Below are positions 1 to 64,000 of a stretch of DNA of 64,000 nucleotides, in pieces. The position numbers and the translations under genes were made by a program. Position 1 is the first letter of the stretch; each line of letters opens with the position of its first letter. Origin of the DNA: Acrocarpospora macrocephala (GTDB lineage Bacteria > Actinomycetota > Actinomycetes > Streptosporangiales > Streptosporangiaceae); NCBI RefSeq assembly GCF_009687865.1, contig NZ_BLAE01000020.1, positions 1 through 64,000 on the forward strand. The letters are read 5' to 3'. The notes below the pieces were generated by a model. That model was not told the origin of the DNA, did not search any database, and saw only the letters and a list, made by a program, of their open reading frames with translations.

Positions 1-2170
1 CTCCAGCGCGGCCGCCACCTCAAGCACCGCCTCCTCGACACCGGAGATCACGGTGGAGGCCGGGCCGTTCACCGCCGCGACCGACACCTCACCCTCACGC
101 CCAGCCAGCAGCCCGGCGACCACATCCTCGGACGCCTGCACCGCCACCATCGCCCCACCGGAAGGCAACGCCTGCATCAACCGCGCCCGAGCCGCCACCA
201 ACGCACACGCATCCGCCAGCGAGAGCACCCCGGCCACATGAGCCGCCGTGATCTCCCCGATCGAATGACCGGCCAGCACATCCGGCCGCACACCCCACGA
301 CTCGACCAGCCGGAACAGGGCGGTCTCGACCGCGAACAACGCCGGCTGCGCCCACCCCGTCTGATCCAGCAGCCCGGCTTGGTCGGCGAACAGCACCTCA
401 CGCAACGACCCGTCGAGCAACGGGTCCAGCTCGGCGATCACCTCATCCAACGCCTGCGCGAACACCGGGAACCGGTCGTACAACTCCCGGCCCATCTCCG
501 CCCGCTGGCTGCCCTGACCGGTGAACAACACCGCCAGCTGCGGCTCCGCACCAGCCACCCCACGCACCACACCCGCACCCGGCAGGTCCTCCGCCAGCGC
601 GCCCAGCCCGGCCATCAGACCATCACGGTCCCCGGCCAACACCACCGCACGATGCTCGAACGCCGACCGCGTCGCAGCCAGCGAGAACCCCACATCGGCC
701 AGACCCAGACCAGCAGCACCCTCCAGACGGGCGACCAGCCGCCCGGCCTGCGCCCGCAACGCCCCAGCCGACCGACCCGACACCACCACCGGAACCAGCC
801 CCGGATCCACCGCCCCGGTCCGACTTTCCGGAACCTCCGGCCCCTGCTCGATGATCACGTGGGCGTTGGTGCCGCTGATCCCGAACGACGACACGGCGGC
901 CCGGCGCGGGCGATCGGTCTGCGGCCACCCCACCGGCTCGGTCACCAGCTCAACCGCACCCTCACTCCAGTCCACATGCGAGGACGGCGCATCCACATGC
1001 AACGTGCGCGGCACCACACCCTCGCGCATCGCCATGATCATCTTGATCACACCCGCCACACCCGCAGCCGCCTGCGTGTGACCGATGTTCGACTTGATCG
1101 AACCCAGCAGCAACGGACGATCCTCGTCCCGGTCCTGCCCATAGGTCGCCAGCAGCGCCTGCGCCTCGATCGGGTCACCCAGCGTCGTACCCGTACCGTG
1201 GCCTTCCACCGCGTCCACCTCGGACGCCGACAAACCGGCACCGGCCAGCGCCTGCCGGATCACCCGACGCTGCGACGGACCGTTCGGCGCCGTCAACCCG
1301 TTGGACGCCCCATCCTGATTGACCGCAGAACCCCGCACCACCGCCAGCACCTCGTGCCCGTTACGGCGCGCGTCCGACAACCGCTCCAGCACCAGCACAC
1401 CCACACCCTCCGACCAGCCCACCCCGTCGGCGCTGTCGGAGAACGCCTTGCACCGCCCATCAACCGACAGACCACGCTGCCGGGCGAACCCGATGAAGGT
1501 GTTCGGGGTCGACATCACCGTGGCCCCGCCCGCCAGCGCCAGCGAGCAATCTCCCGAGCGCAGCGCCTGCGCCGCCAGATGCAACGCCACCAGCGACGAC
1601 GAGCAGGCCGTGTCCACCGTCACCGCCGGACCCTCCAAACCCAGGGTGTACGACACCCGGCCGGAAGCGACGCTCGGCGCGGTCCCGGTCCCTTCATAAC
1701 CCTCGACCGCGTCGCGCCCGCCAAGCCCCTCAACCACCTCGCCAACCGCGGCCTGATGCACCCGGCCGGCGGCGTTGCCCAGGGTCAGGCCGTAATCGTT
1801 GTACATCACCCCGGTGAACACACCGGTCTGGCTGCCCCGCAACGACCCCGGCTCGATCCCCGCCCGCTCGACCGCCTCCCACGACACCTCCAGCAGCAAC
1901 CGCTGCTGCGGATCAACCGCCAGCGCCTCACGCGGCGAGATCCCGAAAAACCCCGCGTCGAACTCGTCGGCGTCATGCAGGAACCCGCCATGCCGCGTGT
2001 ACGACGCCCCCACCCGGCCAGGATCCGGATCATAGATGCCATCCAGATCCCACCCCCGATTCGTCGGGAAACCGGTGATCGCGTCGGTCTCCTCAACCAC
2101 CAGACGCCACAAATCCTCCGGAGAGGCGACCCCACCCGGATACCGGCACGCCATCCCCACGATCACAACC
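1..2170 (-). other. pksB module 3 (partial): KS-AT(malonyl type), processing domains beyond the left edge
   Basis: The KS Cys codon is at 1603-1605 and AT GHSIGE at 253-270; the sequence ends inside the AT before the HAFH position. The malonyl call therefore rests on GHSIGE and on close likeness to the ATs of modules 1 and 2. The KS carries about 20 extra residues in the loop between the motifs MYNDY and EGTGT (about 1690-1800). Its reductive domains cannot be seen. Confidence 0.85.
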
Positions 2171-5100
2171 GGGTCATCCGCCACCGAACGCACCACAGGC
2201 GACAGCACAGCCGAACCGGCCTGCTCACCCAGCAACTCGCCCAACAGGAACTCCGCCAGCACAACCGGCGTCGGATAGTCGAACACCAACGTCGCCGGCA
2301 ACCGCAACCCCGTCACCACACCCAGCCGGTTACGCAACTCCACCGCAGTGAGCGAGTCAAAACCCAGCTCACGGAACTCATGCCGCGCTTGGACGGCGTC
2401 CGCCGACGCGTGCCCCAGCACCGCCGCGACCTGCGCACGCACCAAATCCAGCACAAACCGCACCCGATCGGCCTGTCCCATGCCGGCCAGCCGCCCACCC
2501 AGCGACCCATCACCCGGCACCGGCACCAACGCCGATGCCGCCGACCGGCGAACCCCCCGCGCCAACCCTCGCAACAGATGCGGCACCTCACCACCCGCCC
2601 GTGCCACGGCCGCCGCATCCAACCGGGCCGCCACCACTGCCGCACGACCCACCACACCCGCCGCGTCGAACAACGCCAACCCCTGCTCGACCGCCAAGGC
2701 CGAGATCCCCGCCCGCGTCATCCGCCGAAGATCAACCTCAGCCAGTCCTCCCGTCATCCCCGCGTCTTGCGCCCACGGACCCCACGCAAGCGACAACCCC
2801 GCCAAACCCAGAGCACGCCGATGCTCAGCCAGCGCATCCAAGAACGCGTTCGCCGCCGCGTAATTGCCCTGACCCGCCCCACCGAACACCCCCGCCACCG
2901 ACGAGAACACCACGAACTCCGCCAGATCCAGATCCCGAGTCAGCTCGTGCAAATACCAGGCCGCATCCACCTTCGGCCGCAACACCGCATCCACACGCTC
3001 CGCCGACAACGACGAGATCGTCCCGTCATCCAGCACACCAGCAGTGTGAATGACCGCCGTCAGCGGATGAGCGGGATCCACCCCGGCCAGCAGAGCCGCC
3101 ACCTGCTCACGATCCGCCCCATCACACGCGATGATCTCCACCTCGGCGCCGTGCGCGATCAGCTCGGCCCGCAACTCCAGCGCACCCGGGGCATCGGCCC
3201 CCCGGCGGCTGGTCAGCAACAGACGCCGCACCCCACGCCCAGCCACCACATGCCGCGCGAACAACGCACCCAGACCACCGGTGCCACCAGTGATCAACAC
3301 CGTCCCCTCCAGATCCCACGAGCGGACACCGCCCCCATCAAGGGCATCGCCAAGATCAGAGCGGGGTGTCACCCGCGCCAGGCGGGGAACCAGCACCCCA
3401 CCGCCGCGCACCGCCACCTGCGGCTCACCCGAGGCCAGCACCCCGGCCAGCACCACAGACGAAATCAGCGGCGAAACCGTGGACAACCCCCCCAGCGGCG
3501 AGGACGGCTCCCCGGCCACACCCAACGGCGCCAACCGGCCCAGATCCCCGCCATCACGGCAGTCGGCCGCACCAACATCGACCAGCACGAACCGGCCCGG
3601 ATTCTCCGACTGCGCACTACGGACAAGACCCCACACGGCCGCAGCCGCCAGATCGGTGACCTCCTCACCCTCACCCACCGCGACCGCGCCCCGAGTCACC
3701 ACGACCAGACGCGAATCAGCGAACCGGTCATCGGCCAGCCACCCCTGCACCACTTCCAGCACCCGGACGGTCAGCGCATGCGACGACTCCACCACCCCAT
3801 CGGCCGGGTCGGAGACGACCTCGGTCAGCACCACACCAGGCACCGGCCCCTCCAGGACCGACAGGTCCGCGTGAACCGGCAGCACCAGCCCGTCGCGATC
3901 GCCGCTCGGGCCCGCCGGCGCTGTGCCGAGCACGTCCGAGCCGAGCACCGCCAACGGCACCGCCTCAGGCACCGCAAGCTCCGTCAGCGGCGTCCATTCC
4001 ACCCCGAACAGCGGATCCCGCCCCATCGTGCCACTGGAGGCCAGGGCGAACCGATCGGCTGAGACCGGCCGCAGCACCAGCGACCGCATCGACAGCACCA
4101 TTTCCCCGGCGGCGTCCACCGCGGTCACTGAAACCGAATCATCGCCCGTCCTGGCCAGCCGGACCCGCAACAACGACGCCCCACCCGCGTGCAAGGACAC
4201 CCCACCCCACGAGAACGGCAACAACACACCCTCGGAACCACCCAGCCGCCAATCCCCCAGTCCGGCGAACGGCACCACATGCAACGCCGCATCCAGCAAC
4301 GCCGGATGCACCCCGAACAACCCCGCATCAACCACCTGCTCCGGCAGCACAACCTCCGCGAACACCTCACCAGCCGCGCCCCGCCAGGCCCCCCGCAACC
4401 CCTGGAACACCGGACCGTAGCCGAACCCGCCCGCGGCCAGGTCCTCGTACAACCCGTCCAGCTCGATCGCGGTCGCGCCCCGCGGCGGCCAGACCTCGGC
4501 ATCGAACGACCCGGCTTCCGAAGCACCGGTCGCGAGCGTCCCGGTCGCGTGCCGCACCCACGGCACATCCTCACCGGCCTCCGCCAATCGGGCATAAACG
4601 TTCACGCTCCGGCGGCCCGACTCCTCCGGCGCACCCACCGCGATCTGGACCACGACCGCCTCGCCCTCGCCCAGCACCAGCGGCACGGTCAAGGACAGCT
4701 CCTCCACCAGGTCGCAACCGACCTGATCACCCGCCCGGATCGCCAGCTCAAGGAACCCGGTACCCGGGAAGATCACCGTGCCGGACACCACGTGATCGGC
4801 CAGCCACGGATGCGACCTCACCGACAGGCGCCCGGTCAGCAGCACACCGTCGGAGTCGGCCAGGCCCACCGCCGCACCCAGCAGCGGATGGCTCGCAGCG
4901 GTCAGCCCCAACCCTCGGGCATCCCCAGCCGAAGCGGGGTTCGGCCAGTACCACCGACGTTGGAAGGCGTATGTGGGCAGCTCCACCTGGCGCGCGCCCG
5001 GGAACATCGCCCGCCAATCGAGCGGCACCCCATGCACATGCAGCCCGGCCAGCGCGGACATCACCGCGCTCTGCTCATCCCGATCCCTGCGCAACACCGA

Positions 5101-8100
5101 CACCAGCACCAGGTCCGACTCGCGCGCGTCGACGTCCGAATCGGCGACCGCGGCAAGGGTCTCCTGAGCCATGGCGGTCAGAACGCCATCGGGACCCAGC
5201 TCCAGATACGCCCGCACACCCTGCGCATGCAACACACTGACACCGTCGGCGAAGCGGACCGCGCCACGCACCTGCTCCACCCAGTAATCCGGCGAGCACA
5301 ACCGCTCAGCCGTGACCAGCTCCCCGGTCAAAGTGGACACGATCGCAAGGCGCGGCGAGTTGTAGCTGAGCGTCCCGGCCAGGGCGCGGAAATCCGCCAG
5401 CATCGGATCCATCAACGGCGAATGGAACGCATGCGACACCCGCAACCGCCGCGTCCTGACCCCCCGAGATTCCAGCGCGGCCGCCACCTCAAGCACCGCC
5501 TCCTCGACCCCGGAAACCACCAGCGAGGCCGGGCCGTTGACCGCCGCGATCGACACCTGCTCTTCGCGCCCGGCCAGCAGATCGGTGACCTGATCCTCGG
5601 ACGCCTGGACCGCCACCATCGCCCCACCCGCGGCAAGCGCCTGCATCAACCGCGCCCGGGCCGCCACCAGCACACACGCATCGGCCAGCGAGAGCACCCC
5701 GGCCACGTGCGCCGCCGTGATCTCCCCGATCGAATGACCCGCCAGCACATCCGGCCGCACACCCCACGAGGACACCAACCGGAACAACGCCGTCTCCACC
5801 GCGAACAACGCCGGCTGCGCCCACCCCGTCTGATCCAGCAGCCCGGCCTGGTCGGCGAACAGCACCTCACGCAACGACCCATCCAGCAAGAAGTCGAACT
5901 CGCCGATCACCTCATCCAACGCCCGCGCGAACACCGGGAAACGCTCGTACAACTCCCGGCCCATCCCCACCCGCTGGCTACCCTGACCGGTGAACAACAC
6001 CGCAAGCCTCGGCTCCGCCCCGGCCACCCCGCGCACCACACCCACACCCGGCCGATCCTCGGCAACGGCCCGCAGTCCGGCCAGCGCACCCTCACGACCG
6101 CTCGCCAGCACCACCGCCCGGTGCTCGAACGCCGACCGCGTCGTCGCCAGCGAGAACCCCACATCGGCCAGACCCAGACCAGCCGCACCCTCCAGATGAG
6201 CGACCAGCCGCCCGGCCTGCGCCCGCAACGCCTGATCGGTCCGACCCGACACCACCACCGGAACCAGCCCCGGATCCACCACCGGATCCACCGCGACGCC
6301 CGCCACCGGCACCGTCCCGGCACCTGGCACCAGCTCCGCACCCGGATCTCGGTCAACAGCCCGGTCCTCAGCACGAGCCCCGGTCCGACTCTCCGAAACC
6401 TCCGGCCCCTGCTCGATGATCACGTGGGCGTTGGTGCCGCTGATCCCGAACGACGACACGGCGGCCCTGCGGCGCCGCCCCGCCTCCGGCCACCCCACCG
6501 GCTCGGTCACCAGCTCAACCGCACCCTCGCTCCAGTCCACATGCGAGGACGGCGCGTCCACATGCAGCGTCTTCGGCAGCAGGCCGTGCCGCATCGCCAG
6601 CACCATCTTGATCACACCGGCGACCCCAGCGGCGGCCTGCGTGTGACCGATGTTCGACTTGATCGACCCAAGAAGCAGCGGACGGTCCTCCGGCCGGTCC
6701 TGCCCATAGGTCGCCAGCAGCGCCTGCGCCTCGATCGGGTCACCCAGCGTCGTACCCGTACCGTGGCCTTCCACCACGTCCACATCAGCGGAAGCCAGCC
6801 CCGCACCAGCCAGCGCCTGGCGAATCACCCGACGCTGCGAAGGACCATTCGGCGCCGTCAACCCGTTCGACGCACCATCCTGATTGACCGCAGACCCCCG
6901 CACGATCGCGAGGATCTCGTGCCCGTTTCGGCGCGCGTCCGACAACCGCTCCAGCACCAGCACGCCCACGCCCTCCGACCAGCTCACCCCGTCGGCGCTG
7001 TCGGAGAACGCCTTGCACCTGCCGTCGGCTGCCAGCCCGCCCTGGGCGCTGAAATCAATGAAGGAGCTTGGCGTGGCCATCACTGTCACGCCACCGGCCA
7101 GCGCCAGCGAGCACTCACCCGAGCGCAGCGCCTGCGCCGCCAGATGCAACGCCACCAGCGACGACGAGCAGGCCGTGTCCACCGTCACCGCCGGACCCTC
7201 CAGGCCGAGGGTGTAGGACAAGCGGCCGCTCACGACGCTACCGGCGCTACCGATGCTGGAGAAGGTCATCACGTCCGGCGGGAGCGACACACTGTTCGCA
7301 TAGTCGTGGTACATCACGCCGGCGAAGACACCGGTATGGCTGCCGCGTAACGAGGTCGGGTCGATCCCGGCCCGCTCGATCGCCTCCCAGGTGGTCTCCA
7401 GGAGCAGGCGCTGCTGCGGGTCCATCGCCAGCGCCTCACGTGGCGAGATGCCGAAGAAGCCGGGGTCGAACTCCCCTGCCTCATGCAGGAAACCACCCTC
7501 ACGCACGTAGCTGGTGCCCCGGCTCTCCCGATCCGGGCTGTACAACGCCCTCAGATCCCACCCTCGATTCGTCGGGAAACCGGTGATCGCGTCGGTCTCC
7601 TCAACCACCAGACGCCACAAATCCTCCGGAGAGGCGACCCCACCCGGATACCGGCACGCCATCCCCACGATCACAACCGGGTCATCCGCCACCGAACGCA
7701 CCACAGGCGACAGCACAGCCGAACCGGCCTGCTCACCCAGCAACTCGCCCAACAGGAACTCCGCCAGCACAACCGGTGTCGGATAGTCGAACACCAACGT
7801 CGCCGGCAACCGCAACCCCGTGACCACACCCAGCCGGTTACGCAACTCCACCGCAGTGAGCGAGTCAAAACCCAGCTCACGGAACTCGAGCCGCACCTCC
7901 ACCCCATCCGGCGAGGCATGCCCCAGCACTGCGGCTACTTGGCTGCGGACGAGCTCAACCACCAACCGAATTCCATCAGCCTCCCCCAAACCGGCCAACC
8001 GTCCAGCCAGCGACCCATCGCCTGCCGCCGACGCCGCCGACCGGCGAACTCCCCGCACCAATCCCCGCAACAGATACGGCACCTCACCACCCGCCCGCGC

Positions 8101-11100
8101 CACGGCGGACACGTCCAACCGCGCCGTCACCACCGCCGCACGACCCACCGCGACAGCCGCGTCGAACAACCCCAAGCCTTGCTCGGCCGTCAAGGTCAGA
8201 ATCCCCGCCCGCGCCATCCTGTGCATATCGGCCTGGCCCAGCGTGCCCGTCATCCCCGCGTCTTGCGCCCACGGACCCCACGCAAGCGACAACCCCGCCA
8301 AACCCAGAGCACGCCGATGCTCAGCCAGCGCATCCAAGAACGCGTTCGCCGCCGCGTAATTGCCCTGACCCGCCCCACCGAACACCCCCGCCACCGACGA
8401 GAACACGACGAACTCCGCCAGATCCAGATCCCGAGTCAGCTCGTGCAAATACCAGGCCGCATCCACCTTCGGCCGCAGCACCGCATCCACACGCTCCGCC
8501 GACAACGACGAGATCGTCCCGTCATCCAGCACACCAGCGGTGTGAATGACCGCCGTCAGCGGATGAGCGGCCGGGACCTGAGCCAGCAACGCCGCGACCT
8601 GATCCCGGTCTGCCACATCACACGCGGCGATCGAAACCTCCACGCCATGCGCGATCAGCTCCGCCTGCAACTCCACCGCACCCGGAGCGTCCGCCCCCCG
8701 GCGGCTGGCCAGCAGCAGACGCCGAACCCCACGCCCGGCCACCACATGCCGCGCGAACAACGCACCCAGACCACCGGTGCCGCCGGTGATCAGCACCGTC
8801 CCCTCCGGATCCCAGGGGCGTACGACATCACCACCAGCGCCACCAGGAGCACGACGCGCTCCACCCAGGTCGCCGCCACGGTCAGAGGTGGTGGTCACCC
8901 GCGCCAGCCGAGGCACCCACACCTCACCGCCGCGGATCGCCGCCTGTGGTTCGCCTGACGCCAACACCTCACCCATCGCTTCGGGCAACGTTCCCGGCAA
9001 CGCCGACAGCGAGGATCTGTCATCCACATCCACCAGCACGAACCGGCCGGGATGCTCGGACTGCGCGCTCCGCACCAGACCCCACACCGCTGCCGCCGCG
9101 AGATCAGCCGCGCCCTCGCCGTCATCGGCCGCCACCGCACCCGTGGTCACGAACACCAAACGGGAACCATGACACCGGGCGTCAGCCAGCCACGCCTGCA
9201 CCAACCCCAGCACCTGGGCGGTCAACTCGTGAACCGACCCCACCACGTCCCCGTCCGGATCCGTGACCGCCTGCGTCAGCACCACCCCGGGTACCGGCCC
9301 TGCCGCCAGCAGCGACGGCAGATCCAGATGGAACGGAACCGAATCCCCACCCGGCCGCCACGCCGCGATGGCACCCAACGCCCCGAAACCCAGCACCGCC
9401 GGCGGCATCCCATCGGCCACCCCACCTGCTGCCGCACTCTTCGGCACCGGCGTCCATTCCACCCCGAACAGCGCATCCCGCCCCATCCTGCGATCACCGG
9501 AAGCGAGGGCGAACCGATCAGCTGAGACCGGCCGCAGCACCAGCGACCGCGCCGACAACACCATTCCCCCGGCCGCGTCCACCGCAGTCACCGAAACCGA
9601 ATCATCACCCGTCCTGACCAGCCGGACCCGCAACAACGACGCCCCACCCGCGTGCAAGGACACCCCACCCCACGCGAACGGCAACAACACACCCTCCGAA
9701 CCCCCCAGCCCCCAATCCCCCAACCCGGCAAACGGCACCACATGCAACGCCGCATCCAGCAACGCCGGATGCACCCCGAACAACCCCCCATCAACCACCT
9801 CCTCCGGCAACACGACCTCCGCGAACACCTCACCAGCCGCGCCCCGCCACGCCGCACGCAACCCCTGAAACACTGGCCCATAACCCAACCCACCCCCAGC
9901 CAGCCGGCCATACAACCCACCCAGCTCAATCACCGACGCACCCCGCGGCGGCCACACCGCCGCATCGAACACCGCCGTGTCAAGGAGCGTGCCAGCCGCA
10001 CCACCGGCCCCGACGACCTGCCGCCGATCGTTCTGAACGTTCGTTCCAGCGCTGTGATCACTGCTCGTCAGCACACCACCGGCGTGCCGTACCCACGTAT
10101 CACGATCGTCCGTCTCGGCAGGCCGAGCATGAATGCTCAGTTCCCGGCGACCCGACCCGTCAGCAGGTCCCACCCGTACCTGAACTGTCACGGCCTCAGC
10201 CGCACCCAGCACCAGCGGCGCGGTCAAGGTCAGCTCCTCGACCACATCACAGCCGACCTGATCACCCGCTCTGATCGCCAGCTCCAGGAATCCGGTGCCC
10301 GGGAACACCACCGTCCCGCCCACCATGTGATCGGCCAGCCATGGATGCGACCTCAGCGAGATACGACCGGTCAGCAGCACCCCATCCAAACCGGCCAGCC
10401 CAACAGCGGCCCCAAGAAGCGGGTGCTGGGCGGCCGTCAGGCCCGCCGTAGTCAGGTCTCCCGCTCGCGAGACCGCGCCATCAGCCCAGAAACGCCGACG
10501 CTGGAAGGCGTATGTGGGCAGCTCCACCTGGCGGGCACCAGGGAACATCGCCCGCCAATCGAGCGGCACCCCATGCACATGCAACTCGGCCAGCGCCGAC
10601 ATCACCGCGCTCTGCTCATCCCGATCCCTGCGCAACACCGACACCAGCACCAGGTCCGACTCGCGCGCGTCGACGTCCGAATCAGCGATCACGACAAGGG
10701 TCTCCTGAGCCATGGCGGTCAATACCCCGCCGGGACCCAGCTCCAGATACGCCCGCACACCCTGCGCATGCAACGTACGGACGCCCTCGGAGAACCGCAC
10801 GGCCTGGCGCACCTGATCCACCCAGTAATCCGGCGAGCACAACCGCTCGGCCGTGGCCTGCTCTCCGGTCAGGGTGGACACCACCGGAATCCGCGGCGGG
10901 TTGTAGCTGAGCGTCCCAGCCAAGGCACGGAAATCCGCCAGCATCGGATCCATCAACGGCGAATGGAACGCATGCGACACCCGCAACCGCCGCGTCCTGA
11001 CCCCCTGAGACTCCAGCGCAGCCGCCACCTCAAGGACAGGCTCCTCCGCCCCGGAGATCACCACCGAGGCAGGGCCGTTCACCGCCGCGACCGACACCTC

Positions 11101-13248
11101 ACCCTCACGCCCGGCCAGCAGCCCGGCGACCACATCCTCGGACGCCTGCACCGCCACCATCGCCCCACCGGACGGCAACGCCTGCATCAACCGCGCCCGG
11201 GCCGCCACCAGCGCACACGCATCACCCAGCGACAACACCCCGGCCACGTGAGCCGCCGTGATCTCCCCAATCGAATGACCGGCCAGCACATCCGGCCGCA
11301 CACCCCACGAGGACACCAACCGGAACAACGCCGTCTCCACCGCGAACAACGCCGGCTGCGCCCACCCTGTCTGATCCAGCGCCTCCGCCTCAGCCGTATC
11401 CGGCTCGGCGAACAGCACCTCCCGCAACGATCCGTCGAGCAGCGGGTCCAGCTCAGCGATCACCTCATCCAACGCCTGCGCGAACACCGGGAAACGGTCG
11501 TACAACTCCCGGCCCATCCCCGCCCGCTGGCTGCCCTGACCGGTGAACAACACCGCAAGCCTCGGCTCCGCCCCGGCCACCCCGCGCACCACACCGGCAC
11601 CCGGCCGATCCTCGGCAACGGCCCGCAGTCCGGCCAGCGCGCCCTCGCGATCCCCGACGATCACCGCCGCCCGGTGCTCGAACGCCGACCGCGTCGTCGC
11701 CAGCGAGAACGCCATATCGGCCAGCCCGACATCAGGCACACCGTCCAGGTACGACGCCAGCCGCTCGGCCTGGGCCCGCAACGCCTGATCGGTCCGACCC
11801 GAGACCAGCAGCGGCACCGACAACCCTCCGTCCACCACGGGCACCGGGCGCTCGGACACCACATCAACGCCCTGCTCGATGATCACGTGGGCGTTGGTGC
11901 CGCTGATCCCGAACGACGACACGGCGGCCCGGCGCGGGCGATCGCTCCGCGGCCACCCCACCGGCTCGGCCACCAGCTCAACCGCACCCTCACTCCAGTC
12001 CACATGCGAAGACGGCGCATCCACATGCAACGTGCGCGGCACCACACCCTCACGCATCGCCATGACCATCTTGATCACACCCGCCACACCCGCAGCCGCC
12101 TGCGCGTGACCGATGTTCGACTTGACCGACCCAAGAAGCAGCGGACGATCCTCCGGCCGATCCTGCCCATAGGTCGCCAAAAGCGCCTGCGCCTCGATCG
12201 GATCACCCAGCGTCGTACCCGTACCGTGCGCCTCGACCACGTCGACATCCGCGTAGGACAACCCCGCGCCGGCCAGCGCCTGCCGGATCACCCGCTCCTG
12301 CGACGGACCATTGGGCGCCGTCAGGCCATTGGAGGCACCATCCTGGTTGACCGCGCTGCCCCGCAGCACCGCGAGTACCTGGTGGCCCAGCCGCCGCGCG
12401 TCCGACAGCCGCTCCACCACCAGGACGCCGGCGCCCTCCGCCCAGACGGTGCCGTCAGCCGCCGCCGCGAACGACTTGCACCGGCCGTCCGGCGCCAGGC
12501 CCCGCTGCCTGCTGAACTCCACGAACATGCCAGGGTTGGCCATCACCGTGACGCCACCGGCCAGGGCCAGGGAGCACTCCCCGGCCAGCAGGGCACGGGC
12601 CGCCTGGTGCAATGCGACCAGGGACGAGGAACACGCGGTGTCCACGGTGACCGCAGGCCCCTCCAGGCCCAGCGCGTAAGCCACCCGCCCGGACACGACG
12701 CTGGCGGTGGTGCCGGTCAGCAGGTGCCCCTCGAATACCTCGGGGGCGGCGTAGAGCGGGGCGGCGTAGTCCTGCGCGATCGCTCCGACGAACACACCGG
12801 TACGGCTGCCGCGCAGGGAGCGCGGGTCGATCCCAGCCCGCTCCACCGCCTCCCACGACGTCTCCAGCAACAACCGCTGCTGCGGATCCATCGCCAGCGC
12901 CTCCCGCGGCGAGATCCCGAAGAACCCCGCGTCGAACCCCGCCGCGTCCGCCAGGAACCCACCCACCCGCAGGTAACTCTTCCCGGCCCGATCCGGGTCG
13001 GGGTCGTACAGGCTGTCCACGTCCCAGCCCCGATCGGCCGGGAAGTCGCCGATCGCGTCGCGCTCGCCGGCCACCAGTTCCCACAGGTCCTCCGGCGAGG
13101 TCACCCCGCCGGGGAACCGGCAGGCCATGCCGACGACGGCGATGGGCTCCCGGTCGCGTTCCTCCAGGTCGCGCAGGCGCTTGCGCGTCTCGTGCAGCTC
13201 GACGGTCACCCGCCTCAGGTATTCGACGAGCTGCTCGTTGTCCGTCAT
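1..13248 (-). CDS. pksB: modular type I PKS, three malonyl modules seen (KS-AT-DH-KR-ACP, KS-AT-DH-KR-ACP, KS-AT...), 3' end outside window
   Basis: This is an elongation PKS with 4,416 codons in the window and no stop before the left edge. The N-terminus has a coiled-coil docking helix (residues 1-35, starting [11 protein letters not shown]). Module 1: KS Cys206, AT with GHSIGE near 657 and HAFH near 758 (malonyl type), DH His974/Asp1165, KR Tyr1631 with the B-type LDD motif, ACP Ser1796. Module 2: KS Cys2027, malonyl-type AT (2504, about 2605), DH His2819/Asp2986, B-type KR Tyr3463, ACP Ser3632. Module 3: KS Cys3882 and AT with GHSIGE at 4327, cut off there. All visible catalytic residues are present and there is no ER, so modules 1 and 2 should each install an E alkene. 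ATG 13248 is chosen because GGGGGA (13256-13261) lies 7 nt upstream and the docking helix starts there. An in-frame ATG at 13266 overlaps the pksA stop as ATGA and is also possible. The gene follows pksA and probably accepts its chain. Confidence 0.95.
2058..2379. repeat. Near-identical repeat copy 1 (pksB ACP-2 to KS-3 linker)
   Basis: This tract matches 7566-7887 with only two differences seen by eye in about 320 bp, and the first 211 bp (2058-2268) appear identical, including third codon positions. It spans the ACP Ser region, the inter-module linker and the start of the next KS. Confidence 0.85.
2300..7700 (-). other. pksB module 2: KS-AT(malonyl)-DH-KR(B)-ACP
   Basis: Key codons: KS Cys 7168-7170, AT GHSIGE 5722-5739, HAFH about 5421-5432, DH His 4792-4794 and Asp 4291-4293, KR Tyr 2860-2862, ACP Ser 2353-2355. 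The DH motif reads [10 protein letters not shown], which fits HxxxGxxxxP. Predicted outcome: a second alkene conjugated with that of module 1. Large parts are almost identical in DNA to module 1. Confidence 0.93.
2753..3061. repeat. Near-identical KR repeat copy 1 (pksB module 2)
   Basis: This tract matches about 8250-8558 with about three differences by eye. It covers the catalytic part of the KR, including the Tyr codon. Confidence 0.8.
7566..7887. repeat. Near-identical repeat copy 2 (pksB ACP-1 to KS-2 linker)
   Basis: Partner of 2058-2379. Such identity at silent positions indicates recent duplication or gene conversion. Confidence 0.85.
7800..13150 (-). other. pksB module 1: KS-AT(malonyl)-DH-KR(B)-ACP
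   Basis: Key codons: KS Cys 12631-12633, AT GHSIGE 11263-11280, HAFH about 10962-10973, DH His 10327-10329 and Asp 9754-9756, KR Rossmann motif about 8780-8815, KR Tyr 8356-8358, ACP Ser 7861-7863. The stretch of about 700 nt between DH and the KR Rossmann motif matches a KR structural subdomain, not an ER. Predicted outcome: one E alkene. Confidence 0.93.
8250..8558. repeat. Near-identical KR repeat copy 2 (pksB module 1)
   Basis: Partner of 2753-3061. Confidence 0.8.
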
Positions 13249-13255
13249 CCGCGCG

Positions 13256-13261
13256 TCCCCC
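13256..13261 (-). promoter_or_regulatory. Ribosome-binding site for pksB
   Basis: GGGGGA, 7 nt before ATG 13248, just outside the pksA stop (13263-13265). The alternative in-frame ATG 13266 overlaps the same stop as ATGA and has a GAGGAA upstream, so translation of pksB is probably coupled to pksA either way. Confidence 0.6.
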
Positions 13262-13262
13262 G

Positions 13263-16200
13263 TCATCCGAGTTCCTCGTCGATAAAGCTGAGCAGTTCGG
13301 CCACCGAGGCCGTCTGGAGCCGCCCGGTGACCTCGCCGTCGCCGTTGGCCGGTGGTGGCGGCGCGGCCCAGGCCGCCACCTGGTCCGACAGGAGCTTCAG
13401 GCGGGCGGCGACGCCGACGCGAAGTCCGCCGTTGGCGGGCGTGGCGGCCAGGGCGGCGGCGAGGCGGTCCAGGTCGGCCAGGACGCCCCCGCCGGGCTCG
13501 GGCGCGCCGGGCGTCAGCTCGGCGATCAGGTGCCGGGCCAGGGCCGCGGGCGTCGGGTGGTTGAACAGCAGGGCGGCGGGCAGGCGCAGGCCGGTGGCGG
13601 CGCAGAGCTGGTTGCGTAGCTCGACCGAGGTGAGCGAGTCGAAGCCCAGGTCTTTGAACGACGCATCTGCCTCGACGTCGCCCGCGGCGTCGTGCCCGAG
13701 CACGGTCGCGGACTGGGCGCTGATCAGCTCCAGCACCGTGCGGGTGCGGGCGCCGGGGTCGAGCGCGGCCAGCCGCTCGGCGAGCGGCACGCCGGCGGCG
13801 CGGCCGGGCGACGGCGCCTGGGCGGGGACCGGGGGAACCGGGGGGACCAGGGCGCGCAGGATCGGCGCCGCGTCCGGCCCCGCGGCACGCACGGCGGCGA
13901 GGTCGAGGCGGGCGGGCACGGCCACCGGCTCGTCCAGGGCCAGGGCCCGGTCGAACAGGGCGAGCCCGGCTGGGACGGACAGCGGCGACAGGCCCGCGCG
14001 GGCCATCCGGGAGCGGTCGGCGCCGCCGAGCGCGGTGGTCATGCCCTCGGTCCAGGGTCCCCAGGCCAGGGCGGTCGAGGGCAGCCCGTGCGCGCGCCGG
14101 TGCCGGGCCAGGGCCTCCAGGAAGGCGTTGGCCGCCGCGTACGCGGCCTGGCCCGCGCCGCCGAGCGTGGCCATCACCGAGGAGTACAGGACGAGGGCGG
14201 GCGCGCCCGCGTCGCGCGTGGCGCGATGCAGGTTGAGCGCGCCGTCCACCTTGGGGCGGAGCACGGCGTCCAGGCGCTCGGCGGTGAGCCCGGTGACGGT
14301 GGCGTCGTCGAGCACGGCGGCGGCGTGGACGACGACGGCTGGCCGGTGCTCGGCCAGGAGCGCCTCGACGGCGCCGGCGTCGGCGACATCACAGGCCGCG
14401 ACGGTGATCCTCGGGCCGGGGTCGGATACCTCCCGGCCGCCGCGCCCGGCCAGCACCACCCGGCCTACGTCGTGGCGGTCGATCAGGTGCCGGGCGAGCG
14501 CGCGGCCGAGCGCACCGGTGCCGCCGGTGATCAGGACCGTGTCGCGGGGGCCGGGCCGGACGGGCATGGTGAGCGCGACCTTGCCCACGTGCCGGGCCTG
14601 GCTCAGGTGCCGGAACGCGTCGGGGGCGCGGCGCAGGTCCCAGGTGACCACGGGCAGCGGAGCCAGCTCACCACGCTCGAACAACGCCAGCACCTCGCGC
14701 AGCAGGCGGCCGAGGTGGCCGGGGTCAAGGTCCAGCAGGTCGAACGCCTGGTAGCGCAGGTGCGGGTACCGGCGGGGGTCGCGGATGTCGGTCTTGCCCA
14801 TCTCCACGAACCGGCCGCCGGGGCGCAGCAGCCGCAGCGAGGCGTCCACCAGTTCACCGGCGAGGGAGTTGAGCACCACGTCCACGTCCCGGCCGCCGAA
14901 GTGGCGCTCGAACTCGGCGGTGCGCGAGGAGGCCAGGTTCGAGCCGGGCACGCCCAGGGCGCGCACCTGGTCCCACTTGCCGGGGCTCGCGGTGGCGAGC
15001 ACGTCCGCGCCGAGGTGCCGGGCGATCTGGACGGCGGCCATGCCGACGCCGCCCGCCGCCGAGTGGATCAGCACGGTCTCCCCCGCGCGCAGCCCGGCCA
15101 GCTCCACCAGCGCGTGGTAGGCGGTGAGGAAGGCGATGGGCGTGGTGGCGGCCCGCGCGTACGACCATCCGTCCGGGATGGGGGCGAGCGCACAGTCGTC
15201 GGCCACCGCTGTGGTGGCGAAGGCGCGGGAGAACACTCCCAGTACCCGGTCGCCAGGGGCGTACGCGGTCACGCCCGGGCCGGTCTCGGCGACTACGCCC
15301 GCCCCCTCCAGACCCAGGGCGCCTCCGCCGCCGGGGTAAAGGCCGAGCGTGAGCATCACGTCGCGGAAGTTGACCCCGGCCGCGCGAACGTCCACGCGGA
15401 CCTGGCCGGGGGCGAGCGGCGCGCCGGGATCGGCGACGAGGGACAGGCCGTCCAGGGTGCCGCCCCCGTCCGAGGCGAGCCGCCAGTGCGCGGCCCCGCC
15501 GGGCGGGAGCAGGTGGCGGGAGGGACGGGCGAGCCGGGGCACGCGGGCCGTCCCGGCGCGCAGCGCGAGCTGGGGTTCCCCGGTCGCCACGGCGGCGGCG
15601 AGCGCGTGCTCGGACGCCTCGTGGCCGTCGCTGTCCACCAGGACGATCCGGCCGGGGTGCTCGGTCTGGGCCGAGCGCGCCAGGCCCCACACGGCCGCCG
15701 CCGCGGGATCGGCCGGGTGCTCGCGGTCGTCTACGGCGACGGCGCCACCGGTCACCAGCACCAGAGACCGCTCATCAGCGCCTTCCACGGCGGCGCGGAC
15801 GAGAGCCAGGCCCTGGTGCACGATCTCGCGCACGGACGCGGCCGTCGGCTCGTCCTCGCCGGTGGACAGGCGCACGATCCGGGGCGCGGGCGCCTCGCCG
15901 GGCGGCAGCGGCAGCTCCGGCCACTCCACGGTGAACATCGAGTCGGCGAACCTCGAATCGGCGGGCACGTCGGACGACGAGGCGGGGCGCAGCACCAGCG
16001 AGCCGATCGCCGCGACCGGGCGTCCATGCCCGTCGACCAGCGCGACCGAGACGGCCCCGGCGCCCGCGGGCGTGACCTCGACGCGCAACTCGCGCGCGCC
16101 CGCGCGGTGCAGCGACACGTCCTCGAAGGCGAAGGGCACCACGGGCTCCCCCGAATCGCCGGTGGCGAGCACCGCCGCGTGCAGCGCGGCGTCCAGCAGG

Positions 16201-25530: not shown

Positions 25531-25542
25531 CTGGTCCCACCA

Positions 25543-26508: not shown

Positions 26509-26514
26509 GTGATA

Positions 26515-26770: not shown

Positions 26771-26780
26771 GAGAACGCTG

Positions 26781-28010: not shown

Positions 28011-28011
28011 T

Positions 28012-49400: not shown

Positions 49401-51142
49401 GCCCACTGGGCTCCCTGACCCGGGAACACCCACACCGACTTCCCGACGACGTCGGCCACACCCGTGACCACCCGAGCCGCCGACCCCACTGCGATCACGC
49501 CACCACGCAGGGAGGCTCCGGCGTCGTCCGTGCTCAGCGGACCGAGACCAGCCAGCAACTCCTCGCGATCACGCCCGACCACCACCGCGCGGCGCTCGAA
49601 CATCGACCGCATTGTGGCCAGCGAGAACGCCACATCGACCAGCCGCAGATCGTCCGCCGCCTCCACATACTCGGCCAGACGGCCGGCCTGCGCCCGCAAC
49701 GCCTCATCGGATCTGCCCGAGATCACGCACGGCAGCACACCCGCCACCGGCGCCGGGTCCGCCACGTCCGGCTCGGCCTGCGGCGCCTCCGGCGCCTGCT
49801 CCAAGATCATGTGCACATTCGTGCCGCTCATCCCGAACGACGACACACCCGCCCGGCGCGGACGGCCCGTCTGCGGCCACTCCACCGGCTCCGTCAGCAG
49901 TTCGACCGCGCCCGAGTCCCAGTCCACCCGCGAAGATCGCTCGTCCACATGCAGCGTCTTGGGCAGCACCCCATGCCGGAGAGCCAGGATCGTCTTGATC
50001 ACGCTGGCCACACCCGCCGCGGCCTGCGTGTGACCGATGTTCGACTTGACCGCCCCGAGCAGGAGCGGCTGCCCCTCTGGCCGGTCCTTGCCGTACGTGG
50101 CCAGCAGCGCCTGGGCCTCGATCGGGTCACCCAGCGTCGTCCCGGTGCCATGCGCCTCGACCGCGTCCACGTCAGCGGGACTCAGTCCCGCGACGGCCAG
50201 CGCCTTGCGGATCACCCGCCGCTGCGAAGGACCGTTCGGCGCGGTCAACCCGTTGGACGCGCCATCCTGATTGACCGCGGAACCCCGGACGATGGCGAGG
50301 ATCTCGTGCCCGTTGCGGCGGGCGTCCGACAACCGCTCCAGCACCAGCACGCCCACGCCCTCAGACCAGCCCGTGCCGTTCGCGGTGTCGGCGAACGCCT
50401 TGCACCGGCCGTCGGGCGCCATCGCGCCCTGCGCGTTGAACCCGAGGAACACCAGCGGCGACGCCATCACGGTCACCCCGCAGGCCAGCGCCAGCGAGCA
50501 CTCACCCGACCGCAGCGCCTGCGCCGCGAGGTGAATCGCCACCAGCGACGAGGAACAGGCCGTGTCCACCGTCATCGCCGGGCCCTCCAGGCCCAGCGTG
50601 TAGGACAGGCGTCCGGACAGCACACTGGCCACCGTTCCGGTGACGCTGTCGCCCTGCCCGCCTTCCAGGACCAGGCTCATGTAGTCCTGGCCGTTGGTGC
50701 CCACGAACACGCCGGTGGAGCTGCCCTTCAGCGAGACCCGGTCGATCCCGGCCCGCTCGATCGCCTCCCACGACGTCTCAAGCAGCACCCGCTGCTGCGG
50801 ATCCATCCCCACTGCCTCACGCGGCGAGATCCCGAAGAACCCGGCGTCGAACTCCACCGCATCGGACAGGAACCCGCCCTGGCATCCGACCCCCATGGCC
50901 GAAATGCCCTCCACATCCCAGTCCCGATCGACCGGGAAGGAGGAGATCGCGTCCTCACCGTTGATCAGTAACCGCCAGAAGTCCTCAGGCGAGCCGACTC
51001 CGCCGGGAAAGCGGCATGCCATCGACACGATCGCGATCGGATCGTGCCGGTGCGACTCCAACTCTTCAAGCCGTCGACGGGTCTCGTGGAGATCGGCGGT
51101 GACCCACTTCAGGTACTCAACGAGCTTCCGATCTTCGGACAT
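40439..51142 (-). CDS. pksD: two methylmalonyl modules, both KS-AT-DH-KR-ACP
   Basis: This PKS has 3,567 aa. An N-terminal docking helix ([13 protein letters not shown]...) is followed by module 1: KS Cys196, AT with GHSQGE (659) and YASH (about 760; methylmalonyl), DH His968/Asp1136, B-type KR Tyr1548 (LDD), ACP Ser1713. Module 2: KS Cys1943, methylmalonyl-type AT (about 2388 and 2489), DH His2695/Asp2861 (DAASH in place of the usual DAALH), KR Tyr3276 with LVD, which still keeps the B-type aspartate, and ACP Ser3442. The C-terminus is a docking helix ([17 protein letters not shown]). Two successive methyl-branched alkenes are predicted. ATG 51142 is chosen for the docking consensus and for GGAGGG (51151-51156) 8 nt upstream; the frame opens at GTG 51175. 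It lies 29 nt after pksC and 36 nt before pksE, so the three genes form one operon. Confidence 0.96.
40730..45835 (-). other. pksD module 2: KS-AT(methylmalonyl)-DH-KR(B)-ACP
   Basis: Key codons: KS Cys 45314-45316, AT GHSQGE about 43964-43982, DH His 43058-43060 and Asp 42560-42562, KR Tyr 41315-41317, ACP Ser 40817-40819. Predicted outcome: alkene C6=C7 with a methyl on C6, conjugated to the module 1 alkene. Confidence 0.92.
45841..46080. repeat. Near-identical repeat copy 1 (pksD ACP-1/KS-2 junction)
   Basis: This tract matches 62736-62975 in pksC at roughly 97% by eye and covers an ACP and the linker to the following KS. Confidence 0.75.
45890..51050 (-). other. pksD module 1: KS-AT(methylmalonyl)-DH-KR(B)-ACP
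   Basis: Key codons: KS Cys 50555-50557, AT GHSQGE 49151-49168, YASH about 48847-48862, DH His 48239-48241 and Asp 47735-47737, KR Tyr 46499-46501, ACP Ser 46004-46006. Predicted outcome: alkene C8=C9 with a methyl on C8. The KS has LALACG where the other modules have LALAGG. Confidence 0.93.
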
Positions 51143-51171
51143 CAGAGTGGCCCTCCAATTCAGACGCGGGG

Positions 51172-54100
51172 TCACAGATCTTTCGAGCGGCCCAGCTCGT
51201 TGTCGATGAAACTCAGGATTTCCTCGGTGCTCGCCGATTCGAGCATGTCGGCGACCGCGATTTCACTAGTGTCCGTGTCGCTCTCGCTCACCATCGCCAG
51301 CAGTTGACGCAGCCGGGTCGCGATGCCGTTGCGAGTGAGCTCATCGAGGGCGTCGCCGGAGAGAACGGCCTCGACCCTGTCGAGATCACCCAGCACCGTC
51401 GGCTCTGCTGCGGTGTCCGCCTCGGGCGCCATCTCCGTCACGATGTGCTCGGCGAGGCTGGCGGGGGTGGGGTAGTCGAAGATGAGCGTCATCGGCAACC
51501 GCAGCCCCGTCACCGCGTTCAGCCGGTTACGCAGCTCGACCGTGGTGAGCGAGTCGAAGCCCAGCTCGCGGAACTCCCGCCCCGCCTCAATCGCGTCCGC
51601 CGACGCGTGCCCGAGCACCGCCGCCGCCTGCGACCGCACCAGCTCCACCACCAGCCAGATCTGCTCGGCCTTCGCCATACCGGCCAGCTGCCGGGACAGC
51701 GCCTCGCCCGCGTCGCCACCCGCCGACCCCGACGCCGCCGTGCGGCGGGTGCCGCGTACCAGCCCGCGGAACAGCGGCGGGACCAGCTGGGCGGGCATCG
51801 GCGGCAGGTTCATCGGGACCGGGAGCACCAGCGGCGAATCCGAGCCGATGGCCGTGTCGAACAGGGCCAGCCCCTGCTCGGTGGTGATGGGCGGCAGCCC
51901 GGCGGCGGTCATCCGCTGGACCTCGGCCTGCGACAAACTCCCGATCATGCCGCTGGTCTGCGCCCACAATCCCCAGGCCAGGGACAGGCCCGGCAGTCCT
52001 TGAGCGCGGCGGGTGGCCATCAGCGCGTCCAGCCAGACGTTGGCCGCCGCGTAGTTGCCCTGACCGGCGTTGCCCGTCACACCGGCCAGTGAGGAGAAGA
52101 CCATGAAGTCGGCCAGGTCCAGGTCCTGGGTCAGCTCGTGCAGGTGCCAGGCGGCGTCCACCTTCGGCCGCAGCACCGACTCCAGCCGCTCCGGCGTCAG
52201 CGACGCGATGGTCCCGTCGTCCAGCACACCCGCGGTGTGAATCACCGCGGTCAGCGGATGCTCGGTGCCGATTCCGGCCAGCAAACCGGCCACCGCATCC
52301 CGGTCGGCCACATCGCAGGCGGCGATGGTCACCTGCGCGCCCAGTTCCTGCTCCAGCTCGCGTGCGCCGGTCGCTTCCAGACCTCTTCGGCTGACCAGCA
52401 GCAGGTGTCGTACGCCGTGCTCGGCCACCAGATGCCGGGCCACCTCCGCGCCCAGACCGCCGGTGCCACCGGTGATCAGCACGGTGCCTTCCGGGTTCCA
52501 GCGGCGCGGCATGGTCAGCACGATCTTGCCGGTGTGGCGGGCCTGGCTCATGAACCGGAACGCCTCACGGCCCCGCCGCACATCCCACGCCGTGACGGGT
52601 AGCGGTCGCAGCTCGCCGGTTGCGAACAGCCCTGCCAGCTCGGTCAGGATCTCCCGCAGTCGCTGAGGTCCGGCGTCCATCATGTCGAACCAGCGGTAGG
52701 TCAGCCCGGGGAACTGCTCCTGGTCACGGATGTCCAGCTTGCCCATCTCGATGAACCGGCCACCCGGGCGCAGCAACCGCGCGGTAGCGTCGATGAACTC
52801 GCCGGTCAGCGAGTTCAGGACCACATCGATCCCCCGCCCGCTGAACCGCTCCTCGAACTCCAGGGTGCGGGAGGACGCGATGTGATCGTCGGGGATGCCC
52901 AGCGAGCGGAGGACGTCCCACTTGGCCGGGCTGGCCGTGGCGAACACCTCAACGCCCAGGCGCTGGGCCAGCTGGATCGCCGCCATGCCCACGCCGCCCG
53001 TGCCTGCGTGCACCAGCAGCGACTCGCCCGGCCGCAGCCCGGCCAGATCCATCAGCCCGTAATAGGACGTCAAGAACGCCACCGGAATCGTCGCCGCCTG
53101 CTCGAAGGAGACCCCGTCGGGCACCTTCGCCAAGGCCGTGGCCGCGGCGACGACCACCGGGCCGAAGGCGCCCTCGGCCAGACCCATCACGCGGTCTCCC
53201 GGGCGCAGGTCGTCCACCTCGGGGCCGACCTCCAGCACCACGCCGGCGGCCTCGCTGCCCATCAGACTGGCCATGTCCTGGTACCAGCCCAGCGCGTTCA
53301 ACCCGTCCAGCAGGTCCCGGAAGTTGACGCCCGTCGCGTGTACCGCGACGCGTACCTGTCCGGCTCCCAGCGGTTCCGCCGCCCTCGGGAAGGGAAGCAG
53401 TTCCAGCGCGTCCAGGCTGCCCTTGGCCTGGCTGCCCAGCCGCCACGGCACCCCTGCCGGAGGCACCAACCCTGCCCCCGACACCAGCGGCGCCAACCGT
53501 GGCACGCGCACCCCACCGGCGCGCACTGCTACCTGCGGCTCATCGCTGGCCAGCACCCCGGCCAGAACCGAGCCCGGCAGCTCACCATCGACATCCACCA
53601 GGACGAACCGCCCCGGATTCTCCGACTGCGCACTACGGACAAGACCCCACACGGCCGCAGCCGCCAGATCGGCGACCGCCTCGCCCTCGCCAGCCGAGAC
53701 CGCGCCGCGTGTCACGAACACCAGCCGCGAGTCCTCCAACCGCTCGTCGGCAAGCCATCCCTGCAAGAGTTCCAGCGCCGCAGCGGTCACCTCATGCGCG
53801 CAGGCCACCGCGTCCCCAGCCGGATCGGTCCCGATCCCGGCCAGCACCACACCCGGCACCGGATCCGCCTCGGCCAGCGCCGACAGATCCGGATGAACCT
53901 CGGCCTGCTCCGTGGCAAGACCCAGCGTGTCGGGGCCGACCACCGCCACCGGCACCGGATCGGCCGCCGGAAGATCCGAAAGCGCGGTCCATTCCAGCCG
54001 GAACAGCCCGTCTCCCATCGTCGCCTGGCCACCGGCCGCGGTTGCGAGCAGATCCGCCGAGAACGAACGCAGCGCCAGCGACCGCGCCGACACCACCGGC

Positions 54101-63100: not shown

Positions 63101-64000
63101 AGACCTCGCAGCAACGCGGGGACCTCGCCGAAAGCACGCATCGCGGGCAGATCCATCCGGACGGGAACCAGCACCGCGTGCCCAAGGGACCCGAGTGCGG
63201 TGGCGACATCGAACAGCGCCATGCCTTGCTCGACGGAAAGCGGCGGCATGCCCGTCCGGGTGATCCGCCGCATGTCGACATCGCTCAGCGTGCCGGTCAA
63301 GCCGGTGTCCTGGGTCCAGGGACCCCACACCAGCGACAGGGCGGCCAAGCCCTCGGTCCGGCGTGACTGGGCGAGGGCGTCCAAGAACGTGTTCGAGGCC
63401 GCGTAGTTGGCCTGACCGGGCGAACCCAGGACACCCGACAGCGAGGAGTACAGGATGAACGCCGCGAGGTCCAGGCCCTGGGTGAGCTCGTGCAGGTGCC
63501 AGGCGGCGTCCACCTTGGGACGCAGCACCGCGTCCAGGCGCTCCGGTGTCAGCGAGGGAATCGTGCCGTCATCCAGCACACCGGCGGTGTGAATGACCGC
63601 GGTCAGCGGATGCTCCTCGTCCACACCGGCCAGCAGAGCCGCCACCTGATCCCGGTCGGCCATGTCACACACCGCGACCGTGACCTCGACACCGTGCGCG
63701 ATCAGCTCGGCCTGCAACTCCACCGCACCCGGAGCCTCCAAACCCCGGCGACTGGTCAGCAGCAGATGCCGCACCCCGCGCTCGGCCACCAGATGCCGGG
63801 CCAGATGACCGCCCAGACCACCGGTGCCACCGGTGATCAGGACTGTTCCGTCCGGATTCCATGGCTGTTCCGCCGCCTCCTGCGCCGGTGCCATGCGGGT
63901 CAGGCGCGGGACCCGCACCGTACTCTCACGCACCGCCGCCTGCGGTTCACCGGAGGCCAGCACCGCGGCCAGCGACGCTGAGGACAGTTCCGCATCGGTG
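51172..64000 (-). CDS. pksC: modular PKS, 5' end outside window; ...KR-ACP, KS-AT-DH-KR-ACP, KS-AT-DH-ER-KR-ACP
   Basis: The frame is open to the right edge, so the N-terminus is missing. The visible part begins inside the KR half of a module: B-type KR (LDD, Tyr codon 63403-63405) and ACP (Ser 62899-62901). The next module has a methylmalonyl-type AT, intact DH and B-type KR (LAD). The last has a malonyl-type AT, DH, ER and B-type KR. The C-terminus is a docking helix ([17 protein letters not shown]) almost identical to that of pksD. All visible catalytic residues are intact. One conserved-position change is seen: SPHEA replaces SPREA in the middle KS. The gene precedes pksD by 29 nt and passes its chain there by docking-helix pairing. 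Confidence 0.95.
51440..57540 (-). other. pksC last module: KS-AT(malonyl)-DH-ER-KR(B)-ACP
   Basis: Key codons: KS Cys 57046-57048, AT GHSIGE 55696-55713, HAFH about 55395-55410, DH His 54778-54780 and Asp 54274-54276, ER about 53420-52500 with the glycine-rich [11 protein letters not shown] motif, KR Tyr 52051-52053, ACP Ser 51550-51552. Full reduction should give a saturated C10-C11 bond between two alkene blocks. Confidence 0.93.
57620..62730 (-). other. pksC middle module: KS-AT(methylmalonyl)-DH-KR(B)-ACP
   Basis: Key codons: KS Cys 62209-62211, AT GHSQGE 60856-60873, YASH about 60550-60570, DH His 59950-59952 and Asp 59449-59451, KR Tyr 58216-58218, ACP Ser 57718-57720. Predicted outcome: alkene C12=C13 with a methyl on C12. 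Confidence 0.93.
62736..62975. repeat. Near-identical repeat copy 2 (pksC ACP/KS junction)
   Basis: Partner of 45841-46080. Confidence 0.75.
62830..64000 (-). other. pksC first visible module (partial): ...KR(B)-ACP
   Basis: The KR Rossmann motif lies near 63850, the Tyr codon at 63403-63405 and the ACP Ser at 62899-62901. Whether a DH is present, and which extender the AT selects, cannot be seen, so C14-C15 is either a hydroxyl or an alkene. Confidence 0.88.

Follow-up and report, generated by a model that had tools for sequence, protein, structure and literature searches.

A conserved 32-module polyketide synthase line in Acrocarpospora macrocephala with the probable plan of a giant amphotericin-type polyene

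What does a polyketide synthase (PKS) assembly line make when the stretch of DNA in view holds its start and its end, and how would the finished chain leave it? The question is raised by the first 64,000 nucleotides of contig NZ_BLAE01000020.1 (C20; 200,356 bp) in the 12.1-Mb, 166-contig genome of Acrocarpospora macrocephala. This stretch, the window (C20:1-64000), begins at the contig end, is the first third of C20 and is part of one large PKS cluster. The cluster is real, large, conserved and of a known class; its tail is unusual, it may include a new release partner, and it is partly in print. Its genes make it quite probable that a single modular type I PKS line builds a giant polyene of the amphotericin type.

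The assembly line and its modules

One PKS line is encoded, comprising a loader, 32 extension modules and a thioesterase (TE), in eight genes of which one is split over two contigs. The cluster spans ~207 kb, from a LuxR-type gene ending at C20:195470 to an AsnB-type gene on C127 (1005), and PKS coding sequence on the two contigs totals 173,931 bp. All PKS genes on C20 lie on the minus strand. Gene A (1..13266) encodes two malonyl DH-KR modules, 2 and 3, and the first part of module 4, within whose AT it is interrupted by the end of C20. Contig C127 (13,044 bp) starts just past the expected position of that AT motif and carries, in order, the rest of module 4, module 5, and phosphoesterase-like, PPTase-like, AsnB-type and DeoR-like genes. 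It appears to be the continuation of gene A: the A. catenulata homologues of both parts share one contig, although gene A reads in two frames there.

Domain reading gives gene B (13263..22559) a KSQ loading module, whose AT YASH points to a propionyl starter, and a malonyl module 1 with DH-ER-KR; gene R1 (C20:149728-177768) has six modules. Gene R2 (C20:123452-146689) is an open frame. Gene R3 (C20:74231-123412) is a single open frame for nine modules. Its product, of 16,393 aa (16,435 aa in A. pleiomorpha), is very large among bacterial proteins. The window part of gene R4 (51172..64000 of C20:51172-74346) holds the end of module 26 and modules 27 and 28, R5 (40439..51175) holds modules 29 and 30, and R6 (31925..40402) holds modules 31 and 32 and the TE. 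We infer the order of use B-A-R1-R2-R3-R4-R5-R6 from where the genes lie, from docking-like sequences at the termini and from the pattern of the class. Further type I PKS-like sequence occurs elsewhere in the genome, at C32:1-20000 and C11:235-253 kb.

Domain outcomes were called by common motif rules for AT, KR, DH and ER. In its available part, a 2022 review reports FAAH for methoxymalonate-specific AT (PMC8944477). The loader combines KSQ (DTGQSSSL) with a YASH-type AT and is read as propionyl. Module 1 reads as saturated, and modules 2-6 (malonyl, DH-KR, intact DH motifs) read as alkenes; the module 4 AT motif falls in the contig gap and is HAFH in A. catenulata. Modules 7 (malonyl), 8 (methylmalonyl) and 9 (malonyl) give hydroxyls, module 10 (malonyl, dead KR) a ketone, and modules 11 and 12 (both malonyl, the latter with DH His to Tyr) hydroxyls again. 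An alkene follows at module 13 (malonyl), saturated units at 14 (methylmalonyl) and 15 (malonyl), an alkene at 16 (malonyl) and a saturated unit at 17 (methylmalonyl). Module 18 has the FAAH-type AT and a dead DH and reads as hydroxyl. Modules 19 (malonyl), 20 and 21 (both methylmalonyl) are called alkene, 22 (malonyl) saturated, 23 (methylmalonyl, dead DH) hydroxyl, 24 (malonyl) probably ketone, 25 (methylmalonyl) saturated and 26 (methylmalonyl) alkene.

The last six modules lie in the window. Module 27 (methylmalonyl, DH-KR) reads as a 12-methyl-12-ene, 28 (malonyl, DH-ER-KR) as saturated C10-C11, 29 and 30 (methylmalonyl, DH-KR) as an 8-methyl-8-ene and a 6-methyl-6-ene, 31 (malonyl, KR) as a 5-hydroxyl, and 32 (malonyl, no KR, followed by the TE) as a 3-oxo group. 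The totals are 14 alkene, 8 hydroxyl, 7 saturated and 3 ketone modules, with methylmalonyl in 11. The first-pass annotation had drawn a partial chain structure from the window, which proves correct, and the AT and reductive domains that it listed (loader, module 1, DH-KR modules, modules 27-32) are all present. The middle that it called unseen does lie outside the window but can be read in the same genome: together with the rest of C20 and C127, the window gives the loader, 32 extension modules and TE, and a six-module block places the cluster in a known class.

Predicted product and rival readings

On this plan, an amphotericin-type head would be joined to an oligo-diene tail with methyl branches, on a backbone of C67. 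Under the motif rules, the propionyl starter would be followed by saturated C64-C65 and a pentaene at C54-C63. A hemiketal head would come next, with C53-OH (the glycosylation site), C51-OH, C49-OH, a C47 ketone and C45-OH, then C43-OH, and the cluster P450 would oxidise the C50 methyl to a carboxyl. Further along, alkenes are predicted at C40 and C34, a 30-methoxy-31-hydroxy unit, a triene at C24-C29 with methyls at 24 and 26, a 20-methyl-21-hydroxy unit with a probable ketone at C19, and dienes at C12-C15 and C6-C9 with methyls at 12, 14, 6 and 8. Saturated methyl branches would stand at 16, 32 and 38, and the chain would end in 5-OH and 3-oxo. Decoration with mycosamine or perosamine by the GDP route is expected, probably also with a 3-C-methyl-6-deoxyhexose, and a carboxyl would probably be amidated by the AsnB-type protein on C127. 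The formulas predicted from the motif plan are C79H122O16 (1326.87 Da) for a linear aglycone carrying the C50 carboxyl, C85H133NO19 (1471.95) once the aminosugar is added and C92H145NO23 (1632.02) once the second sugar is added too, with 1631.04 for a carboxamide and 1614.01 for a lactone; a free 3-oxo acid might also lose CO2. The products of A. pleiomorpha and A. catenulata would bear an additional methyl at C2, and may differ further wherever their domains do.

Modules 2-6, R1, an aminotransferase and a GDP-mannose dehydratase fit the amphotericin-type class, and a P450 and a glycosyltransferase may fill its AmphN-type and AmphDI-type roles. The five malonyl DH-KR modules run into R1, whose first module is module 6. 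The R1 modules are, in order, DH-KR, KR, methylmalonyl KR, KR, dead KR and KR, a six-module pattern identical in A. macrocephala, A. pleiomorpha and A. catenulata that we take to match AmphI module by module. The DegT-type sugar aminotransferase (22867..23931, plus strand) has perosamine synthetases as its nearest solved structures (2.6e-87), from which we infer an AmphDII-type role. Together with the GDP-mannose 4,6-dehydratase (C20:181954-183069) it provides homologues of both AmphDII and AmphDIII, and this pair suggests mycosamine or perosamine. Which of these is made does not follow from primary sequence homology, according to the part of PMC8944477 available. The cluster parts read contain one P450, which adjoins a small ferredoxin-like frame and a glycosyltransferase; its nearest solved P450s include CYP105 members. 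The earlier view of a glycosylated polyene-type cluster is borne out.

Known amphotericin/nystatin-type clusters share with this one the polyene modules, an AmphI-like six-module protein, GDP-aminosugar genes, a P450 (here of putative AmphN type) and a polyene-type TE. On labels that are partly presumed, they also share large LuxR-type regulators, a PPTase-like gene and an ABC exporter. The present cluster differs from them in its 32 extension modules, long methyl-branched diene/triene tail and methoxymalonyl unit, in lacking a predicted starter-end hydroxyl, in an extra dTDP sugar with a 3-C-methyltransferase, and in its AsnB-type protein and the crotonase-fold protein adjoining the TE. Vancoresmycin is likewise a long polyketide bearing mycosamine (PMC13423584 and PMC8944477, in their available parts), but the present line has no terminal nonribosomal peptide synthetase module for tetramic acid, its last protein ending KS-AT-ACP-TE. 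The quinolidomicin cluster also exceeds 200 kb, judging from a reference title in PMC6693128; the product class differs, and the likeness is one of size.

The form in which the chain is released is the least certain step. With no hydroxyl predicted at the starter end, the TE would probably release the chain in linear form or as a lactone closed through an internal hydroxyl. The C-terminal thioesterase region of R6 (31928..32800, minus strand) has ScnS4 as its nearest solved structure (1.4e-61), which we take to be a natamycin-type polyene TE. This resemblance would suit a polyene macrolactone of the conventional kind, with its ring closed at an internal hydroxyl such as C31, C21 or C43, a possible though doubtful outcome. 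In known polyene macrolides the ring is closed on a hydroxyl near the starter, whereas here module 1 is fully reducing and modules 2-6 give alkenes.

The number of sugars is a second point of doubt. A dTDP-glucose 4,6-dehydratase (25543..26523, minus strand; TIGR01181, 378.3 bits against a cut-off of 365.1) and a sugar 3-C-methyltransferase (26712..28010, plus strand; nearest solved structure D-mycarose 3-C-methyltransferase) lie close to the aminotransferase (window 22867-28010). The first-pass annotation took such a set to make one C-methylated amino sugar. A single sugar from these three genes is unlikely, given that the aminotransferase is nearest to perosamine synthetases, that a GDP-mannose 4,6-dehydratase is present in the cluster and that two glycosyltransferase genes were found in the cluster parts read. 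One of these (24161..25408, plus strand) has sterol 3-beta-glucosyltransferases and GtfB as its nearest solved structures. The other, of macrolide type (C20:146876-148252), scores below the MGT cut-off, and no polyene glycosyltransferase is among the matches listed for it. A genome search with PF03559 gave no NDP-hexose 2,3-dehydratase match, the search controls being equally silent. More likely, the C-methyltransferase and dTDP-glucose 4,6-dehydratase would serve a second, neutral 3-C-methyl-6-deoxyhexose beside the mycosamine or perosamine. The available part of PMC5103430 describes mtmC as encoding a bifunctional ketoreductase/methyltransferase, and so these two genes could suffice for such a sugar.

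A meijiemycin-related linear polyene polyol, the class under which the part of PMC8944477 available files incomplete A. macrocephala and A. pleiomorpha clusters ("meijiemycin-related polyene polyols"), is quite unlikely. The same source notes a dTDP-glucose 4,6-dehydratase and an additional glycosyltransferase in the Acrocarpospora clusters. These are most likely the present cluster, because the second glycosyltransferase (E up to 1e-20) and the aminotransferase (E up to 1e-30) have one match each in A. macrocephala and A. pleiomorpha; two other Acrocarpospora genomes (G002, G003) gave no match to either at these thresholds. Both systems have GDP-mannose-type aminosugar genes and a likely linear chain, the starter end here having no predicted hydroxyl. 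However, the review is based on cluster fragments, and the complete set of modules is that of an oligo-diene tail, mainly alkene and methyl-branched, with hydroxyl calls in 8 of 32 extension modules. The polyol character of the class is presumed here from its name and from the structure of meijiemycin.

The open-access literature (titles and abstract beginnings) yielded no account of the complete 32-module line or of what it makes, and no known compound with this domain order, the earlier claim, turned up in the searches made. The cluster is not wholly undescribed, incomplete forms being already mentioned in the available part of PMC8944477. What is new is the near-complete module plan, the variable terminal module and the crotonase-fold gene by the TE in all five clusters with a KR-less end.

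Several points weigh against the amphotericin-type reading itself. The product plan is known here from genes alone, and a piece of the module 4 AT, put at ~17 residues by comparison with sister ATs, is absent between C20 and C127. The calls for module 24, whose KR has Ala for the catalytic Ser in each of the three species, and for module 22 (KR GGTSGLG) are guesses. The likeness of R1 to the hexamodular AmphI-type PKS is one of domain pattern. Among the accessory genes, the GDP-mannose 4,6-dehydratase scores below its family cut-off (401.0 against 415 bits), as does the PPTase, while the ferredoxin-like frame matches its family weakly, at 20.4 bits (cut-off 99). In view of the two glycosyltransferases and the 2,3-dehydratase result, the second sugar is unsure.

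Conservation and the end of the line

Orthologous clusters occur within the genus in A. pleiomorpha NBRC 16267 and A. catenulata H8750. Among the extension modules that can be compared, the AT type is the same in 30 of 31 for A. catenulata (module 4 being unreadable in A. macrocephala) and in 27 of 28 for A. pleiomorpha, where a contig end truncates gene A, modules 2-5 are missing and the loader AT motif was not picked up by pattern. Module 32 is the sole exception in both. In A. macrocephala (window 31925-36000) it has a malonyl AT and almost no DH, and in both relatives a methylmalonyl AT and a DH but no KR. The last modules of Thermocatellispora tengchongensis and of G339 have a malonyl AT without DH, as in A. 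macrocephala, and either state may be ancestral. The difference is likely an AT replacement or exchange. An assembly artefact was considered and judged unlikely, no long exact copy being present elsewhere; the best 150-base windows of this AT reach 96%, with partners elsewhere in C20 that keep changing. Other domain differences in A. catenulata affect the DH of module 27 (His lost) and that of module 30.

G339, a closed 8.1-Mb Streptosporangiaceae genome, holds a homologous cluster between 6,465,583 and 6,681,369, again with 32 extension modules (motifs counted by hand) in a different reductive pattern. A homologue of the LuxR-type gene opens that cluster too, and no AsnB match was found in the stretch fetched. 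Between A. macrocephala and A. pleiomorpha, the ratio of nonsynonymous to synonymous substitution rates (dN/dS) is 0.15-0.68 and below 1 in all 14 units compared (genes, or their first 4,000 codons), highest for the C-methyltransferase. The long open frames, conservation in three species and dN/dS below 1 argue that the cluster is not a product of chance. A decaying, silent cluster, to which the reading of A. catenulata gene A in two frames and the lost His of its module 27 DH might point, is very improbable, since the PKS frames read in A. macrocephala are open over thousands of codons and the dN/dS values are all below 1.

The TE gene is followed after 16 bp by a gene for a crotonase-fold protein of the enoyl-CoA hydratase/isomerase family (30880..31908, minus strand). 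At E up to 1e-60 this protein is found in 5 of 341 family genomes and in 1 of 394 class genomes, the latter being A. macrocephala's own. The TE has matches in 7 of 341 family genomes, and at a level of at least 78% it is held by the same five genomes; T. tengchongensis DSM 45615 is a more distant holder of both genes. The crotonase-fold gene follows the TE gene in 5/5 clusters, 16 to 240 bp apart in called frames, and the last module lacks a KR in all five. Further TE matches, from lists at E up to 1e-70 (class genomes) and 1e-75 (family genomes), are those of G328 (61%), G338 (50%) and two members of one genus, G106 and G119 (45%). A KR is present in the module preceding the TE in 4/4 of these, none of which is among the five holders of the crotonase-fold partner at E up to 1e-60. 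Comparing 5/5 with 0/4 in a Fisher test yields p = 0.008, which is no true probability, as the clusters are related. The pairing appears as a correlation among related clusters.

Tentatively, the crotonase-fold protein may belong, with the KR-less last module and the TE, to a device that releases chains with a beta-keto end. Such a partner could act on the 3-oxo, 5-hydroxy terminus, for example by beta-keto cleavage, decarboxylation or lactone formation. Two of its glutamates align with those of solved hydratases and are presumably catalytic. Hydratase activity is not claimed, because the protein has THAD in place of the usual AGAD. An AlphaFold model with a mean pLDDT of 47.4 was not used. 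In a scan of named genomes, a ~50% relative occurs in Glaciibacter flavus (L060) with no PKS among the frames read near it, which makes it less likely that the wider family serves PKS systems alone.

Accessory genes, flanks and significance

The sugar genes and an ABC exporter, both noted in the first-pass annotation, lie at 22.8-30.8 kb. The exporter comprises an ATPase of DrrA type (29062..30042, plus strand) and a DrrB-like permease (30046..30813, plus strand) that falls below the family cut-off. Beside it, a gene with weak alpha/beta-hydrolase matches (28148..28900, minus strand) likely encodes a type II (editing) thioesterase, a name that we assume from its motifs. Genes for methoxymalonyl-ACP lie at C20:177.9-182.0 kb and comprise FkbH (348.4 bits, cut-off 146.65), an acyl-CoA dehydrogenase, a 3-hydroxyacyl-CoA dehydrogenase, a small ACP-like frame identified by eye and an O-methyltransferase-like gene. 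Both dehydrogenases match their superfamilies, and the O-methyltransferase label is partly presumed. All parts of the pathway (FkbH, FkbI, FkbJ, FkbK and O-methyltransferase) are thus represented, and the set matches the single FAAH-type AT, in module 18. The AsnB-type protein on C127 is nearest to a hydroxyamidotransferase (1.1e-194). The polyene carboxamide synthase PcsA is of the asparagine synthase B type (PMC4540446, available part).

At the flanks, an EIIC-like gene at the right end of C20 and a DeoR-like gene at the left end of C127 suggested a circular replicon. The circle was rejected because the right flank in A. catenulata and A. pleiomorpha is likewise EIIC followed by DeoR, and because C37 and the end of C20 overlap in an identical stretch of 1,380 bases, a repeat at which C126 also ends. 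Between EIIC and DeoR, a pfkB-like frame was called in A. catenulata and in C37, but none in A. pleiomorpha. The PTS EIIC-like, DeoR-like and pfkB-like labels are presumed from sequence features, as are those of the LuxR-type regulator and PccB. Direct copies of the DeoR/PTS EIIC-like stretch seem to flank the cluster (C20:198977-200356, C37:1-1380 and C126:16214-16272). Contig overlaps suggest two identical 1,380-bp copies in A. macrocephala, and those of A. catenulata match each other at 92.2% across 1,494 bp. Such repeats could permit excision or duplication of the entire cluster. Just past the left flank, A. catenulata has plus-strand PKS genes (C94:220003-252006), with which the A. macrocephala flank contig C126 does not align.

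The near-complete 32-module plan gives a testable mass for a predicted molecule that joins an amphotericin head to a long, hydrophobic, methyl-branched tail, and a polyene of this head-plus-tail form would bear on polyene action in membranes. Close clusters that differ in the AT type and DH of the terminal module offer a case of natural module editing within one line. Finally, the pairing of TE and crotonase-fold protein may turn the release of 3-oxo chains into a question tied to one gene.

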